Shown piece after piece: positions 45,694 through 54,643 of a DNA stretch of 64,000 nt. This stretch comes from Salinimonas marina. GTDB taxonomy: Bacteria; Pseudomonadota; Gammaproteobacteria; Enterobacterales; Alteromonadaceae. The DNA lies in NCBI RefSeq assembly GCF_015644725.1, contig NZ_CP064795.1, positions 149,501 through 213,500 of the forward strand, written 5' to 3'. A program made the position numbers and the translations under genes. Numbering within the stretch: position 1 is the first letter of the stretch; every line of letters begins with the position of its first letter. Under the pieces are notes generated by a model. It searched no databases. It was not told the origin of the DNA and worked only from the letters and a program-made list of their open reading frames with translations.

Positions 45694-46736
45694 ATGACAG
45701 ACTCCTTTGCAAACCGAGTACTCAATTGGTACGACCAACACGGGCGGAAACATCTGCCCTGGCAACAGCAGGCCACACCGTATCGCGTGTGGATATCGGA
45801 AATCATGCTCCAGCAAACCCAGGTCACAACGGTTATCCCTTACTATCAGCGCTTTATGGACTCTTTTGCCGATGTACAGGCATTGGCCGGGGCGCCGGTG
45901 GATGAGGTTCTGCATCACTGGACGGGACTGGGGTATTATGCGCGGGCGCGCAATCTGCACAAAGCGGCCAAAGCGATGGTGGAACACCACGATGGTAAAT
46001 TTCCGCAAACCCTGGAGCAGGTAATGGCGTTGCCGGGAATTGGTCGTTCCACCGCCGGCGCGGTGCTGTCGCTGGCCTGTGAACAGCGCCACGCGATTTT
46101 AGATGGCAACGTCAAGCGCGTGCTGGCGCGTTATTACGCCATAGACGGGTGGCCTGGCCAAAAAGCGGTAGAAAACACCTTATGGTCACTAGCCGAACAG
46201 AACCTTCCGCAGCAGCGCTGTAAAAATTATACCCAGGCGATGATGGATTTGGGCGCGATGGTGTGTACCCGCAGCCGACCAAAATGTGATGAGTGTCCGC
46301 TACAGAGCGATTGCCTGGCTTATGCTCAGGGCAAGCAAACAGACTATTCAGGCAAAAAACCAAAAAAAGACAAGCCGGTGAAAACCACAAACCTGGTGGC
46401 GCTACTGACCGATGGCCAGATTTATTTGGTACAGCGACCACTATCGGGCTTATGGGGGGCTTGTATGGCTTTATCGAAACCGAGCAGCCGGTTGAGGTGA
46501 TTGCGCAGCAATACGGGCTTAGCGATTTTAATCAACACACCCTGAACAGCTTCAGACATACATTCAGTCATTTTCATCTGGATATTACCCCGGTGCTGTT
46601 GATAGCACAGCAGACCCACGCCCATCAGGTGAAAGAAGACGGCTCATCGCGCTGGTTCCCCTTACACGAACCGGTTGAAGTAGGATTGGCCGCCCCCACC
46701 AAGAAAATAATCGAACAAATTCAGCGTATGCTGTAA
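45694..46736 (+). CDS. mutY: A/G-specific adenine glycosylase MutY (one frameshift)
   Basis: Removes adenine mispaired with 8-oxoguanine. The catalytic domain shows [19 protein letters not shown] (catalytic Glu), [16 protein letters not shown] (helix-hairpin-helix), [12 protein letters not shown] (Asp) and the [4Fe-4S] cysteines near [17 protein letters not shown]. The frame breaks in the G6 run 46454-46459. One added G joins RPLSGLWGG to [13 protein letters not shown] and restores the MutT-like 8-oxoG recognition domain. The total is 347 residues (E. coli 350). As sequenced, the gene would lose this domain and be a mutator allele; a sequencing error is likelier. yggX follows 33 bases later, the usual pair. 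Confidence 0.94.
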
Positions 46737-48172: not shown

Positions 48173-51100
48173 ATGATTCTAGCCCGTATCGATGTAGCTC
48201 GTATGACTTCGCAATGTATTCGTTCTGCCCCTTTTGTTGCATTAGCACTGGCAGGTTTTTCACTCAATGCCCACGCTAGCCAAAGTGCTCAGCAAGCATC
48301 GCATTCGTTGGTGGTCATAGACAGCACCGCGCCTGATGCGGCCTGGCTTTATGCCACCGCCGTTAAAAATGGCCATCAAGCTGTCATATTAAATTCAGAA
48401 ACTTCAGGTATTGAGCAGTTACAGTCTGCGTTAGCCTCCAACGGCGGTCAAATACGTGATCTTCACCTTATTTCCCACGGGGCTGACGGCCAGGTTTTTC
48501 TGGGGTCAGATATCCTTGAAGCAAACAGCGCTTCCATGGCGAAAATGAGCGCATTGCAGCAATTCTTTGCCCCCGGGGCCGATGTAAAACTGTATGGCTG
48601 TGACATTGCCAGAACAGATTCGGGTGAATATTTTGTCAAGCAGTTAGCCGATGCCATGCAGGTTGACGTGGCGGCGTCTTCTGATACCACGGGTGGTGAC
48701 AAATATGCAGCCAACTGGACTTTAGAGTACACCGTCGGCGACATTGATGAAGGGCTTTTCGCCCAGCAATCACTGTTATCCCAATATAACGGTTATCTTT
48801 CCCATTTTCGGGGCGGTGGCATCAAATGGATCCCGGTAGATGCCGACGGCGATGGTCAGGTAGATGATGTGCGCTTGTATATGACCACCGCCTGGGCTGT
48901 GGGAAAGTCAGAACTTTCTGGAAGAGCAGAGCTTACCAATGCCACCATCACCCCGGTGGAAATAACCAGTCAGGCGGTGTTAAAAACAATCAATGATCCG
49001 GACGCTGATGGTGAATATGACCTGTTGACCCAGGTATTTGAAATGTACGATGTGGATCCTGCGGTGTCGTACCAGGTCCAATACGACGGTGGCAACAGAA
49101 TAGGTGGATTAAACAATAATGCGAATGGCCGATGGGACATCCAGACCCTGGTGTATACCGGCGAGGGTAACAAGCAGGCAGGGTTAGATTTACCTATTGT
49201 TTTTGAAGTCCCTAAGCAAAATGGCGATGGCAGTGTGTTAACTAACTGGACCTACCAAACTAATGTGGTGGACCCCAATGGAGATGAAATTAAGTATCGG
49301 CTGGCGAGTCTTGAAGAGCTAGGCGGCGGTTCATCGGCCAATCCGCCGGGGATTGATATAGACCAGACCACCGGTTTAATCACCTGGACTGGCTCTGGCA
49401 CACGTACTGCCGGCTTGTATTCTGCCGGTTTCGTGGCTGAAGATGTTGACGCATCGGGGTCTGTAAAATCAAAAGCTCACTTTGACATCATTTTATATCT
49501 GATTAATGGCCCGGCTACCGAGAAGTTTGAATTTTCAGAAGATATTCCACAGGAAACAAAAACTGCTATCGTGTCGCCAGATACACCGTTGCTTTTTTCT
49601 ATAGACGAGGTGAGCGGCTCGACGGTAACCAGTACCAATTTGGGTAATGTCCGAAACGAAAATGGGGATCTAGCCCTTTCTACATTGGACTCTGGGCAGT
49701 ATCAGTTCGATGCGAATGGGCTGACCTCTGGTACCTACCCGATTACATTTCAAATTGAAGAAAATGGTAAGGTTAAAGCGTATCAGACCATTAACTTTGT
49801 AGTGCCAGACCCGCTTGGTCCACAGCTGACCTACTACCCTGGTGACGGGGCCTATTCACTCGATGGTGCCAGAACCTTTGTGGATGTGGGGCGTGATGGA
49901 TTTCTTACCGATGCCGACTCCGCCGACCTGCAAGGGGGTAAACTGCGAATCGACACCACCAGAATTGACGGTGCGAATGAAATACTCAGCGTCGACAGCG
50001 CGGGTACTGGTCCAGGAGAAATCCTGGTTAATGATCCTGCAGGAACTATTGCTTATCAGGGCGTTGATTTTGCGACTATCAGTAGCTCTCAAAATGGTGC
50101 GGGAGGGCCGCTGGTTATCGACTTTACCGGTAGTACTTCGTTAGATGCGGCTGAAGCGCTCGTGCGGGCATTGACCTATGAAAATACAGCGGCTACACCT
50201 ACCGATGGCCTTCGCACCTTATCTTTAGTGTTAAGTGATGAAGCTCAAAAAAGTAACCTGTTTAATACCAGTGTGACCCTGGGTTCGCTGGCGAATGATG
50301 CCCCGCAAGCCAATGGCACCTTGTCCAATCAGACCTTTTTGGAAAAAGAACCCTTTTCCTTTGCCATACCGACCAACTTTTTCACCGACAGTGACGGCGA
50401 TACAATAAGTTATTCAGTAAGTGGGCTACCCGCCGGGGTTACCTTTGACGGGGCTTCGCAATCTTTTACCGGCCCCACATCGGTGATTGGTCAGCATACG
50501 GTACTAGTCAGTGCCCAGGATGGTAAAGGGGGGACCGCCACAGCACAATTTACCCTGTACATTAACGCGAATACGGCCCCTACGGTCAACAATACTATCC
50601 CTAACACCCATATTGCTGAAGATCAGCTAATGACCACAATCAATGTGGGGAGCGTTTTTAACGACCCGGAAGGCAAAGCTCTGGATATTGTGGTAACAGA
50701 TTTACCAGATGGAGTAAGCTTTGACAGTCATACGCTGGAAATTTCCGGAACGCCGACGACGCCAGGAGACAATGAGGTAACTATTACCGCTACCGATACT
50801 TCTGGCGAAAGCGCTTCAACAGGATTCAGATTGTCAGTAACCAATACCAATGATGCTCCGACAGCAGGTGCTGCCCTTGTTAATCAGACCACAGACATTA
50901 CCACCAGCCCGGCGACTTATCAGTTCGCGGCCAATTCCTTTTCTGATGAAGATATGAACCAGGGGCAGGCCGATAGTCTGACGTTTACGGCCGAACTGAC
51001 AGATGGTGCTCCCCTACCTGACTTTATCTCATTGAATTCGGCCGACCGGACATTCACCTATGTGCATGACTGGTACGACCGGGGGACCTTTGATATTCGT

Positions 51101-54100
51101 GTTATTGCCAAGGATGATGCCGGTGAAAGTGTCTTTCAGGACTATACCCTGACTATCACCGGCACCAATACCAACCCGATGCGACACCACTTCGAGGGTC
51201 TGGATGTTAACGAAAACAGCAATGCGTTTTTTATGCATAATTCACTGCATTATATGGACCACGAGCAGCTGCCGGTAGACTTGGTTTACACCATTACCCA
51301 GCTTCCTGCAGCAGGCGCCTTATATAAAAATGATGCGCTGTTAAATGTAGGTGACTCCTTCACGCAGCTGGATATTGATGAGATGAATGTGGTTGAATAT
51401 CGTCATGATGGCTCAGAAGATCCTACTGATACATTCTTCTTCACCCTTAGCGATGGCTTTGGTGGCTTTGTTGCCGAAGTTACTGACTTTGCGATTCGGG
51501 TAGCACCGGTCAATGATACCCCTGAAATCAATCAAGGTCTTGAAGATCAAAACGCTATCGAAGGGGTGGCGTTTAGTTACACGGTGCCTGATACGGCCTT
51601 CAGCGACATAGAAGAAGATGTGCTGACCCTGCAGGTTACCTCTGCACTACCGGCCTGGATTAGCTTTGATGGGGCCACACTAACCGGTACCCCGGGGCCA
51701 GGCGATGTGGGTGGGTTCAATGTCACGATAGCAGCGAGCGATCCGGATGGCAGCGCCGTCGACGCCACCTTTGCGCTATTTGTACTCAAAGACTCCGACG
51801 GTGATGGGGAGCCGGATAATACCGACCCGGATACCGACGGTGATGGTTTCCTGAATTCAGAAGATGCATTTCCCCTTGATGCTGCTGAATGGGTGGATAC
51901 CGATCTGGATGGGATTGGCAATAATGCCGACACCAACGATGATAATGATGCTGTGGAAGATAGCCGGGATGCGTTTCCGTTAGACCCTACCGAAACTCTG
52001 GACACTGACAACGACGGTATCGGTAATAATGCAGACACCGATGATGATGGCGATAAAGTGGCCGATAGGGTCGATGTGTTCCCGCTAGATCCCACCGAGT
52101 CTCTTGATACGGATGCCGATGGCATTGGTAATAATGCCGACACGGATGATGACAACGATAATGTTGAAGATCGTCGGGACGCCTTTCCATTAGATCCGAA
52201 AGAAACGCTGGACACAGATAACGACGGTATTGGCAATAATGCAGACACCGATGATGATGGCGATGGGATGCCAGATTCTTATGAAGCGGAGCAAGGATTT
52301 GACTCCTTAGATGCCAGTGATGGTCGTCAGGATTTAGACGGTGATGGCACGATCAACAGCGAAGAGTTTTTGCAAAATAGTGACCCCTTCACTGATGAGC
52401 GTGGACCGGTCTTCGCCCCGGTAGCGCCCTTTATAATCGACGCCACCGGTACCTTTACCCGTATTACTGCGCAAATGATTGAAGAGGCGATTGAGGTGTC
52501 GGTAACCAGTGCTCTGGATGCTGACTGCTGTAAGCCAGAATTAGTTGGACTGGAAGCAGAGGGTACACAATTCAGACCCGGTCGGCATATTCTTACCTGG
52601 AAAGCCGTCGATGCTGAAGGCAATGTGGGCGAGATTGAACAGATTGTCGATATTTACCCGCAAGCTTCATTAAGTCGTGATGTACAGGTGAAAGAAGGTG
52701 CTGTAGCTACGGTAACCCTGATTTTAAATGGCGAATTGCCTGAGTATCCTGCTACTTATAACTTTACCGTGAGCGGAACCGCAGAAGGTGAAGACTACGA
52801 GCTGTCAGCACAATCATTTACTATAACCTCTGGCGCCACCGCAACCATTGATATCGATTTGACTGACGACGGACTTGGCGAAAATGTTGACACGCTAACC
52901 CTGGCTTTAGATAACCGCCATAACGTAGGGGTGAAACCTGACATTACGCTGGATATCGTTGAAACCAATGCAGCCCCACAACTGAGATTATCAACCTTTG
53001 TAGACGGTTCACCTGCGGCGGTCGTCACGCCTGAAGATGGTATTTTGGTGGTTAACCTAGACATTACCGATCCGGGCGATATTCACACTATTCAATGGGA
53101 GGTTCCTGAAGGGATTACTATTGTTGAAGATGAAAATGGTAAAGCGATTGGTATCAGCGCGATTGGCTTACCGTTAGGACCTATCGATTTAACCGTGACG
53201 GTTACTGACAATGGCAGCCCTGCGCTGTCAAGTATTGCCAATATTATTATTCCGGTGATCAGCGAGCGAGTTGCGCTCAATGGCTCAACAGATTCCGACG
53301 GTGATGGCATCAACGATGCGGATGAAGGCTGGACTGATGCTGATAGGGATGGTATCCCGGATTATCTGGATAACAATGATGTCCCTTATTTGCTGCCCGA
53401 GCGTGGCATCGTCAAAGACGCGTATATTGTTGAAGGTGATGTAGGTCTGAAATTAAAACTGGGGCGTTTGTCATCATTTAGTACCTACACCGGCGCGCAG
53501 GTTACAGAGGCCGACTTTGCTAAATTAAACATTGAGCCGGATACGATTGAAAATGTAGGTGGTTATTTCGACTTTATTGCCGAAAGATTGCCCGAAGGTA
53601 CGGTGTCGATAAATGTGGTGTTACCACAGCGAGCGGCGATCCCTGAAGCAGCGGTGTACAGAAAGTATATGCCTGCTTCAGGCTGGCAGACCTATGTAGA
53701 AGATGGCAATAACATGGTTAAATCAGCTTTAGGGGAACCAGGTTATTGCCCGGAACCGGGCTCGTCTGAATACAAGCCTGGGTTAACAGAAGGAGATTGG
53801 TGCGTGCAGTTAACAATAGAAGATGGTGGTCCGAATGATGCGGACGGTGAGGTCAATGGGATTGTTCGTGACCCAAGTGGGGTAGGCAAACCAGAGATCT
53901 TTAATAGCAAAGTTGTGGTTACTTCAAAATCCGGTGGAAGCTTTGGCATGCTGTCTTACCTGGCGCTGGGGCTGGCCGTGATATGGCGTCAAAAGCGCCT
54001 GCTGCTGGCGCTAAGTCTGATGATTACCGCTACGGCGTCGCAGGCTTCTGATAAGCACAGATTGTATTTAAAAGGCGGCCTGGGTAATGCCAAATACAAT

Positions 54101-54643
54101 CTTGATGAAAACAATATCCGTCAAAAGGTGATGAATGTTTCAGATACGGCGGTTTTTGAGAGTATTTCTGAAGACAGCAAGTCTTACTGGCTCGACTTTG
54201 GTTATCGTATTACTCCCAGGTGGGCGCTGGAGATAGGCACGGTGGACCTGGGTGAAAACCAGGTCTCCTTCACCGATCAAATTACCGAGTTTGAAATTGA
54301 TACCTACCTGGGTGAGCTTGATTTTGACCATCCCAGTTCAGCCTCCGGCGAAAGTATTGCCATCTCTTATGGTCAGCAGATTAATGAGGATCTTAGCTGG
54401 AGAATTCGGGTGGGTAAGTTTTGGTACGATGCCGATTACAATTTGCAACTTGATGTTGAAGGGACGCAAATTGATACTGGTCGCGAAACGGTTTCTGATA
54501 GCGAGCTGTTTTTCGGAGGCAATTTACAGTGGCATATTGCTAAGCAGTTTTCTGTCGGTCTGACGGCCAGACGCTATGAAGTAGCAGGCAACTATGTTCG
54601 CCTGGTGGGCGTAAATATTCAGTATCAGTTCTATCAGAGATAA
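48173..54643 (+). CDS. giant DUF4347 / Ig-like / calcium-repeat surface protein with GlyGly-CTERM-like segment and C-terminal beta-barrel
   Basis: A 2156-residue exported protein. Signal peptide (ends LNAHAS, about residue 36; an alternative start is Met11). DUF4347 domain at about 45-200 (DLHLISHGADGQVFLG, KLYGCDIARTDSGEYF). Several cadherin/He-PIG Ig-like domains (about 700-1200). Four 35-residue thrombospondin-type-3 calcium repeats (DNDGIGNNADTDDD). Then a Calx-beta-like region (about 1500-1600) and a choice-of-anchor-like region. Gly1921-Gly1922 begin a GlyGly-CTERM-like tail: helix MLSYLALGLAVIW, then RQKR. Unusually, the frame continues with LLLALSLMITATASQA, which looks like a second signal peptide, and 198 residues of an 8-strand OmpA-like barrel. 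Probable adhesin or biofilm protein (inference). No strong ribosome binding site. Confidence 0.82.
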   Translation: MILARIDVARMTSQCIRSAPFVALALAGFSLNAHASQSAQQASHSLVVIDSTAPDAAWLYATAVKNGHQAVILNSETSGIEQLQSALASNGGQIRDLHLISHGADGQVFLGSDILEANSASMAKMSALQQFFAPGADVKLYGCDIARTDSGEYFVKQLADAMQVDVAASSDTTGGDKYAANWTLEYTVGDIDEGLFAQQSLLSQYNGYLSHFRGGGIKWIPVDADGDGQVDDVRLYMTTAWAVGKSELSGRAELTNATITPVEITSQAVLKTINDPDADGEYDLLTQVFEMYDVDPAVSYQVQYDGGNRIGGLNNNANGRWDIQTLVYTGEGNKQAGLDLPIVFEVPKQNGDGSVLTNWTYQTNVVDPNGDEIKYRLASLEELGGGSSANPPGIDIDQTTGLITWTGSGTRTAGLYSAGFVAEDVDASGSVKSKAHFDIILYLINGPATEKFEFSEDIPQETKTAIVSPDTPLLFSIDEVSGSTVTSTNLGNVRNENGDLALSTLDSGQYQFDANGLTSGTYPITFQIEENGKVKAYQTINFVVPDPLGPQLTYYPGDGAYSLDGARTFVDVGRDGFLTDADSADLQGGKLRIDTTRIDGANEILSVDSAGTGPGEILVNDPAGTIAYQGVDFATISSSQNGAGGPLVIDFTGSTSLDAAEALVRALTYENTAATPTDGLRTLSLVLSDEAQKSNLFNTSVTLGSLANDAPQANGTLSNQTFLEKEPFSFAIPTNFFTDSDGDTISYSVSGLPAGVTFDGASQSFTGPTSVIGQHTVLVSAQDGKGGTATAQFTLYINANTAPTVNNTIPNTHIAEDQLMTTINVGSVFNDPEGKALDIVVTDLPDGVSFDSHTLEISGTPTTPGDNEVTITATDTSGESASTGFRLSVTNTNDAPTAGAALVNQTTDITTSPATYQFAANSFSDEDMNQGQADSLTFTAELTDGAPLPDFISLNSADRTFTYVHDWYDRGTFDIRVIAKDDAGESVFQDYTLTITGTNTNPMRHHFEGLDVNENSNAFFMHNSLHYMDHEQLPVDLVYTITQLPAAGALYKNDALLNVGDSFTQLDIDEMNVVEYRHDGSEDPTDTFFFTLSDGFGGFVAEVTDFAIRVAPVNDTPEINQGLEDQNAIEGVAFSYTVPDTAFSDIEEDVLTLQVTSALPAWISFDGATLTGTPGPGDVGGFNVTIAASDPDGSAVDATFALFVLKDSDGDGEPDNTDPDTDGDGFLNSEDAFPLDAAEWVDTDLDGIGNNADTNDDNDAVEDSRDAFPLDPTETLDTDNDGIGNNADTDDDGDKVADRVDVFPLDPTESLDTDADGIGNNADTDDDNDNVEDRRDAFPLDPKETLDTDNDGIGNNADTDDDGDGMPDSYEAEQGFDSLDASDGRQDLDGDGTINSEEFLQNSDPFTDERGPVFAPVAPFIIDATGTFTRITAQMIEEAIEVSVTSALDADCCKPELVGLEAEGTQFRPGRHILTWKAVDAEGNVGEIEQIVDIYPQASLSRDVQVKEGAVATVTLILNGELPEYPATYNFTVSGTAEGEDYELSAQSFTITSGATATIDIDLTDDGLGENVDTLTLALDNRHNVGVKPDITLDIVETNAAPQLRLSTFVDGSPAAVVTPEDGILVVNLDITDPGDIHTIQWEVPEGITIVEDENGKAIGISAIGLPLGPIDLTVTVTDNGSPALSSIANIIIPVISERVALNGSTDSDGDGINDADEGWTDADRDGIPDYLDNNDVPYLLPERGIVKDAYIVEGDVGLKLKLGRLSSFSTYTGAQVTEADFAKLNIEPDTIENVGGYFDFIAERLPEGTVSINVVLPQRAAIPEAAVYRKYMPASGWQTYVEDGNNMVKSALGEPGYCPEPGSSEYKPGLTEGDWCVQLTIEDGGPNDADGEVNGIVRDPSGVGKPEIFNSKVVVTSKSGGSFGMLSYLALGLAVIWRQKRLLLALSLMITATASQASDKHRLYLKGGLGNAKYNLDENNIRQKVMNVSDTAVFESISEDSKSYWLDFGYRITPRWALEIGTVDLGENQVSFTDQITEFEIDTYLGELDFDHPSSASGESIAISYGQQINEDLSWRIRVGKFWYDADYNLQLDVEGTQIDTGRETVSDSELFFGGNLQWHIAKQFSVGLTARRYEVAGNYVRLVGVNIQYQFYQR
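51896..52315 (+). repeat. four tandem 105-base calcium-binding repeats inside the surface-protein gene
   Basis: Units of 105 bases (35 residues) begin near 51896, 52001, 52106 and 52211. Each has the pattern DTDxDGIGNNADTxDD followed, except in the last, by RDAFPLDPTE. Copies at 52001 and 52211 match at 50 of 54 leading bases. They belong to the thrombospondin-type-3 class and should bind calcium through Asp side chains. Confidence 0.85.

Follow-up and report, generated by a model that had tools for sequence, protein, structure and literature searches.

We found that one gene in a 64,000-nucleotide stretch of Salinimonas marina DNA (the whole stretch analysed, hereafter the window) encodes a large precursor in which an internal GlyGly-CTERM tail leads, in the same frame, into a second signal-like helix and an outer-membrane barrel. 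This precursor is probably matured into two proteins, a surface passenger and an outer-membrane barrel, and it looks like a genuine, hitherto undescribed kind of bacterial polyprotein. On balance, we lean towards a conserved envelope-polyprotein class in which rhombosortase and signal peptidase I would cut one inner-membrane hairpin to give a lipid-modified surface adhesin and a dedicated OmpA-type partner in a 1:1 ratio, with lineages swapping the fused form for overlapping gene pairs.

The gene is an uninterrupted open frame of 2156 codons on the plus strand (48173..54643, all features below being on the same strand). It begins with a segment that reads as a signal peptide (residues 1-35, ending in FSLNAHA; 48173..48277), within which residue 11 is an alternative Met start candidate, followed by a DUF4347 domain (residues 46-209; 48308..48799; Pfam PF14252, 132 bits). 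The passenger ends in a choice-of-anchor U domain (residues 1790-1905; 53540..53887; NCBIfam NF041766, 47.8 bits against a cut-off of 32). The internal GlyGly-CTERM tail comes next (residues 1920-1941; 53930..53995), with the motif S1920-G1921-G1922-S1923 (GG at 53933-53938) and a hydrophobic helix at 1924-1938. A basic RQKR loop, predicted to be cytoplasmic given the K/R-rich loops found across the family (residues 1939-1942; 53987..53998), separates this helix from a second, signal-peptide-like one, LLLALSLMITATASQA (residues 1943-1958; 53999..54046), which ends in SQA. An OmpA-type 8-strand outer-membrane barrel (residues 1959-2156; 54047..54640) and a TAA stop codon (54641..54643) complete the gene, so that the order of parts given in the original prediction, in one stop-free frame, was borne out. 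The tail matched TIGR03501 at 17.7 bits in a six-frame genome search (cut-off 15.5) and at 17-19 bits in pieces of 31-51 residues, whereas the whole protein scored 11.0, and the match therefore sits close to the cut-off. The matched tail is not C-terminal, as 215 residues come after it.

The barrel exceeded the Pfam cut-offs for PF13505 (29.5 versus 28.7 bits in the whole protein, and 34.9 when scanned alone) and PF01389 (26.9 versus 21 bits). A structure prediction had been proposed for this region, and an AlphaFold model of residues 1920-2156 gave an 8-strand barrel preceded by two hairpin helices (5-21 and 24-34 of the model); because pLDDT was only 55-70 there, the model supports these helices weakly. 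A Pfam scan did not detect PF00691, the peptidoglycan-binding domain of full OmpA, in the window protein; this domain was found in three relatives (L035, L167 and L168).

Since the assembly holds other frame-broken genes, relatives were needed to establish that the fused frame is authentic. A mutY-like gene in the window is apparently broken across two frames (the first at 45694-46500, the second ending at 46736), by a true frameshift or an assembly error. Elsewhere, the type II secretin gene gspD lies in two frames (L185/L186, G000:C1:3565573-3567347) and consequently falls below the cut-off of the secretin model; this may reflect an assembly indel or impaired type II export. Such genes favour the reading that two neighbouring genes were merged when an assembly or frameshift error removed a stop codon. 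However, the junction region of the window aligns gap-free over 201 columns with the assemblies of A. lipotrueiana (L031) and Alteromonas sp. ASW11-130 (L032), showing no sign of the missed stop or indel near residues 1939-1960 that would mark such an error. In addition, fused genes are spread over 19 genera from 12 families, counting named taxa (62 fused genes with an origin line, L040 left out). We therefore rejected an assembly error, whose probability we regard as negligible, and because the same layout recurs in many related bacteria the arrangement looks genuine. Substitutions in both hairpin and barrel follow a coding pattern: between the window and L031, dN was 0.058 and dS 0.427 for the hairpin, and 0.104 and 1.049 for the barrel. 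Against L032, the letters of the hairpin change quickly (dN 0.67, dS saturated), as expected for helices in which overall character may be conserved more than the exact residues.

The fusion is not a one-off, which goes beyond what was originally predicted. A first scan of 84,980 named species genomes gave at least 592 pattern matches, 308 of them encoding relatives, of which the best 80 were retained. The query was an alignment of fused genes, and all samples were drawn with fused-gene profiles, which favours fused genes in them. Among these best 80 of 308, 61 are fused in one frame with the same order of parts, as are L015 and L019, confirming that other proteins combine an internal GlyGly-CTERM tail with a barrel and that homologues do not always keep the two as separate genes. 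The barrel is the next gene, in another frame, in six (L048, L072, L090, L104, L105 and L110); in one (L085) a dissimilar barrel (16 bits) comes after a GG-like tail, one (L107) stops at a contig edge, and 11, five of them from Pseudoalteromonas, have a GG-type tail at the protein's end with no such barrel found adjoining. The two-helix hairpin was present in all 64 fused genes (the 61, the window, L015 and L019). Shewanella sp. ANA-3 is one strain with a fused homologue (L068).

Closer samples gave a similar range of layouts. Within the genus, the barrel was found at E<=1e-10 in 10 of 59 genomes, seven times fused and three times split. In 394 genomes of the order, at least 49 places in 40 genomes scored 100 bits or more, counts that are lower bounds as at most seven first-look candidates were scored per genome. 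Of these 49 strong matches, 36 are fused, 35 with the two-helix hairpin (the stretches of L152-L154 begin within the first helix); nine are split, the barrel start lying -8 to +1 nt from the upstream stop, and one is split with about 200 nt between the genes (L158). Barrels L124 and L159 have no neighbouring GG gene, and L145 is cut at a contig edge. One fused GG-tail protein, L156, has a single helix leading directly into an A-x-A site and the barrel, and its genome (G206) lacks a rhombosortase above cut-off. A sample of 370 genomes of the class gave 27 matches at E<=1e-25, window included, and partly repeats the first set (L187 reads like L036, and L188 like L063). Besides the window, 10 are fused with a hairpin, two are split and overlapping (L203 and L205), three are split with gaps of 14, 27 and 195 nt (L210, L200 and L202, respectively), and 11 have no GG tail that we could find or an ambiguous layout. 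Five further fused hairpin loci (L167-L171), all from one other family, combine different passengers with OmpA-type barrels that fall outside the main family, and TIGR03501 was above cut-off in two of the four scanned. Two of these hairpin fusions (L167 and L168) carry the full OmpA C-terminal domain. A class of fusions lacking the hairpin was dropped, as L040 and L207 have it farther upstream, and two more candidates, L192 and L194, gave no GG gene in the stretches examined, where a contig edge intervenes. Read by eye, L040 and L207 carry cadherin/VCBS-like domains between the second signal and the barrel, and L040 also has an OmpA-C-like domain.

In split loci, the barrel gene has a signal-peptide-like start of its own. 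Of the split loci, 23 have a GG-type gene upstream; two of these loci are tandem copies in one genome, and two are close kin. In 18 of the 23, the barrel start codon lies at -8 to +1 nt from the upstream stop, as called by a script that takes the start nearest -4 and is thus biased towards overlap. The overlaps are ATGA or GTGA in 11, TAATG/TGATG in four, and of other types in three; in L016 and L017 the overlapping start is GTG, with an ATG at +11. The remaining five are L020 (+10, or GTG at -14), L210 (+14), L200 (+27), L202 (+195) and L158 (+216). A quick tree covering 89 rows, 72 of them fused and 17 split, shows about 10 changes of state, of which well-supported branches force at least six; the tree does not distinguish gain from loss, and its long branches L157 and L158 join and may be misplaced. 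Lineages alternate between a single fused gene and a gene pair overlapping at stop and start. In many lineages the barrel functions with a signal of its own, and for this reason the barrel of fused genes is best read as a separate protein too.

We measured 63 hairpins, 51 of them non-redundant, with loop bounds set by a crude rule. In these 51, the loops are 2-24 residues long and hold 189 K/R against 5 D/E in total, with at least two K/R in 50. An [AVSTGI]-x-A site follows the second helix in 50 of 51, but 61% of random passenger stretches also contain one, so that this count by itself is moderate evidence. TIGR03501 recovered 37 of the 51 internal tails at E<=0.02 and missed 14, and the MYXO-CTERM model matched 16. 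The charge pattern, and more weakly the AlphaFold helices, fit the topology first suggested for this protein, in which helix 1 would run out-to-in, RQKR would stay cytoplasmic and helix 2 would run in-to-out.

The original prediction depended on a rhombosortase in the genome, and one is present, at 167 bits against a cut-off of 84. A rhombosortase above cut-off was found in 58 of 59 genomes holding fused, split or barrel-less loci (56 of 57 after deduplication, L087 not included). In the order sample, it occurs in 39 of 40 strong-match genomes versus 190 of 354 others (Fisher p 3e-9, uncorrected for kinship). On recheck, none above cut-off was found in G206, which also holds the fused hairpin gene L121, or in the MAG of L034; both have GlpG-like rhomboids.

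Two other readings of the fused frame need to be weighed against a matured precursor. The barrel could be translated separately from an internal start, the long frame being a passive read-through form. Plausible inner starts do exist, such as an ATG after AGGAGA in L018/L078 or the GTG and ATG of L015, and 16 of 51 genes have a start with a duplex energy <= -5. However, in-frame starts of any kind occur in the hairpins of 41 of 51 genes against a chance expectation of 42.4 +- 2.2, and those with a ribosome-binding site number 16 against 11.6 +- 2.3, a value reached in 7 of 100 recodings. Moreover, 10 of 51 genes have no ATG, GTG or TTG in the tested region, and the GTG before the second helix of the window gene is GTA in its nearest relative, L031, which has no start there. 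With start codons at chance level, we rejected internal initiation as a general mechanism and consider this reading unlikely, although a few genes, for example L018/L078, may well have an inner start. It is more doubtful still that the product remains a single uncut chain, with the barrel holding the passenger at the outer membrane as in an autotransporter and the helices serving as a mere linker. One open frame and the single helix of fused L156 would suit such a chain; the conserved basic loop and A-x-A site, the repeated emergence of split barrel genes that begin with a signal-peptide-like segment, and a barrel that is 8-strand and OmpA-like, unlike the 12-strand translocator, argue against it.

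For a precursor matured into two proteins, we propose that Sec would export the long passenger until the GG helix acts as a stop-transfer segment, leaving RQKR in the cytoplasm, and that the second helix would restart export and take the barrel to the periplasm. For VesB, cleavage by rhombosortase leaves the second glycine exposed; a glycerophosphoethanolamine-containing group is then attached to this residue, and the type II system takes the protein to the surface (PMC6219818). The GlyGly-CTERM tag also functions on unrelated proteins (PMC13393428). By analogy with VesB, rhombosortase would cut the outer arm of the hairpin at the internal GG motif, and the passenger would be lipid-modified and delivered to the surface by the type II system. 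Signal peptidase I would cut the inner arm after SQA, the BAM machinery would insert the barrel, and a small membrane hairpin would be left over. Because one gene encodes both, passenger and barrel would be made in equal numbers, and the stop/start overlap would do likewise in split lineages. Several observations weigh against the scheme: fused genes in two genomes where no rhombosortase passed the cut-off, the single helix of L156, tails that TIGR03501 missed or MYXO-CTERM matched, the fast sequence change of the hairpin against L032, the two barrels of the order sample that lack a GG neighbour, the broken gspD, the sampling in favour of fused genes, and the terminal position of known GlyGly-CTERM tails. 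Most likely, the barrel serves the passenger as its own partner in the outer membrane, as suggested by the layout and the like mutants of TraA/TraB discussed below. Distances of U domain and barrel are correlated (Mantel r 0.44, a value reached by none of 1000 permutations). We did not count this towards a partnership, since common species descent produces such a correlation as well.

Parts of this scheme have precedents. Bradyrhizobium fbcH, the cytochrome b/c1 precursor, combines two membrane-associated products in one gene, with a cleaved internal signal ahead of the second; it differs in that these are inner-membrane enzyme subunits, and no rhomboid or outer-membrane barrel is known to be involved. 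In viral envelope polyproteins, signal peptidase cuts at stop-transfer/signal hairpins, the same hairpin logic as proposed here, but in the eukaryotic endoplasmic reticulum and with no known sorting tag. Type V autotransporters share with the window protein an N-terminal passenger and a C-terminal barrel in a single frame; their barrel is a 12-strand translocator, whereas the window protein has an 8-strand OmpA-type barrel in the AlphaFold model, and a membrane hairpin and second signal between the parts. The GlyGly-CTERM/rhombosortase system (VesB/RssP of Vibrio cholerae; TIGR03501/TIGR03902) is alike in its SGGS motif, helix, basic cluster, N-terminal signal peptide and genomic rhombosortase. 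Its tails are placed at the extreme C-terminus in the founding paper (PMC3237569), whereas in the protein studied here the tail lies inside the chain, and the frame runs on into a second signal-like helix and the barrel. In Myxococcus xanthus, the sorted surface protein TraA and its OmpA-like partner TraB are encoded by genes overlapping by four bases, and their mutants look alike (PMC3325183). In gene layout, the only level compared, this pair resembles the split loci, with a CTERM-sorted surface protein followed by an overlapping gene for an OmpA-like partner; the tag is MYXO-CTERM rather than GlyGly-CTERM, and we found no fused form of TraA/TraB in the available text of that paper.

In literature searches on polyproteins, signal peptidase, rhomboids, and GlyGly-CTERM with OmpA, in a library with few subscription journals, we found no comparable internal GlyGly-CTERM/barrel polyprotein. 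No mention of a barrel was found in PMC3237569, PMC13393428, PMC6219818, PMC11389362 or PMC5300114, and none of a polyprotein in the first four. If our reading is true, a CTERM sorting tag need not terminate a protein, rhombosortase gains a second role as a polyprotein protease, and the large surface proteins of a widespread group can be assigned a dedicated outer-membrane barrel. Two questions would also become testable: whether a barrel partner is required by sorted surface proteins, as seems to hold for TraA and TraB, and what purpose is served by the transient inner-membrane anchoring of GlyGly-CTERM proteins, a point on which the founding paper offers no answer (PMC3237569).

Two copies of the system lie on one replicon or contig in G192 (L132/L143) and in Psychromonas (L041/L042). 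In L085 and L200, a barrel gene lies close behind Cys-bearing tails that read by eye as MYXO-CTERM-like, and the layout may thus extend beyond GlyGly-CTERM.
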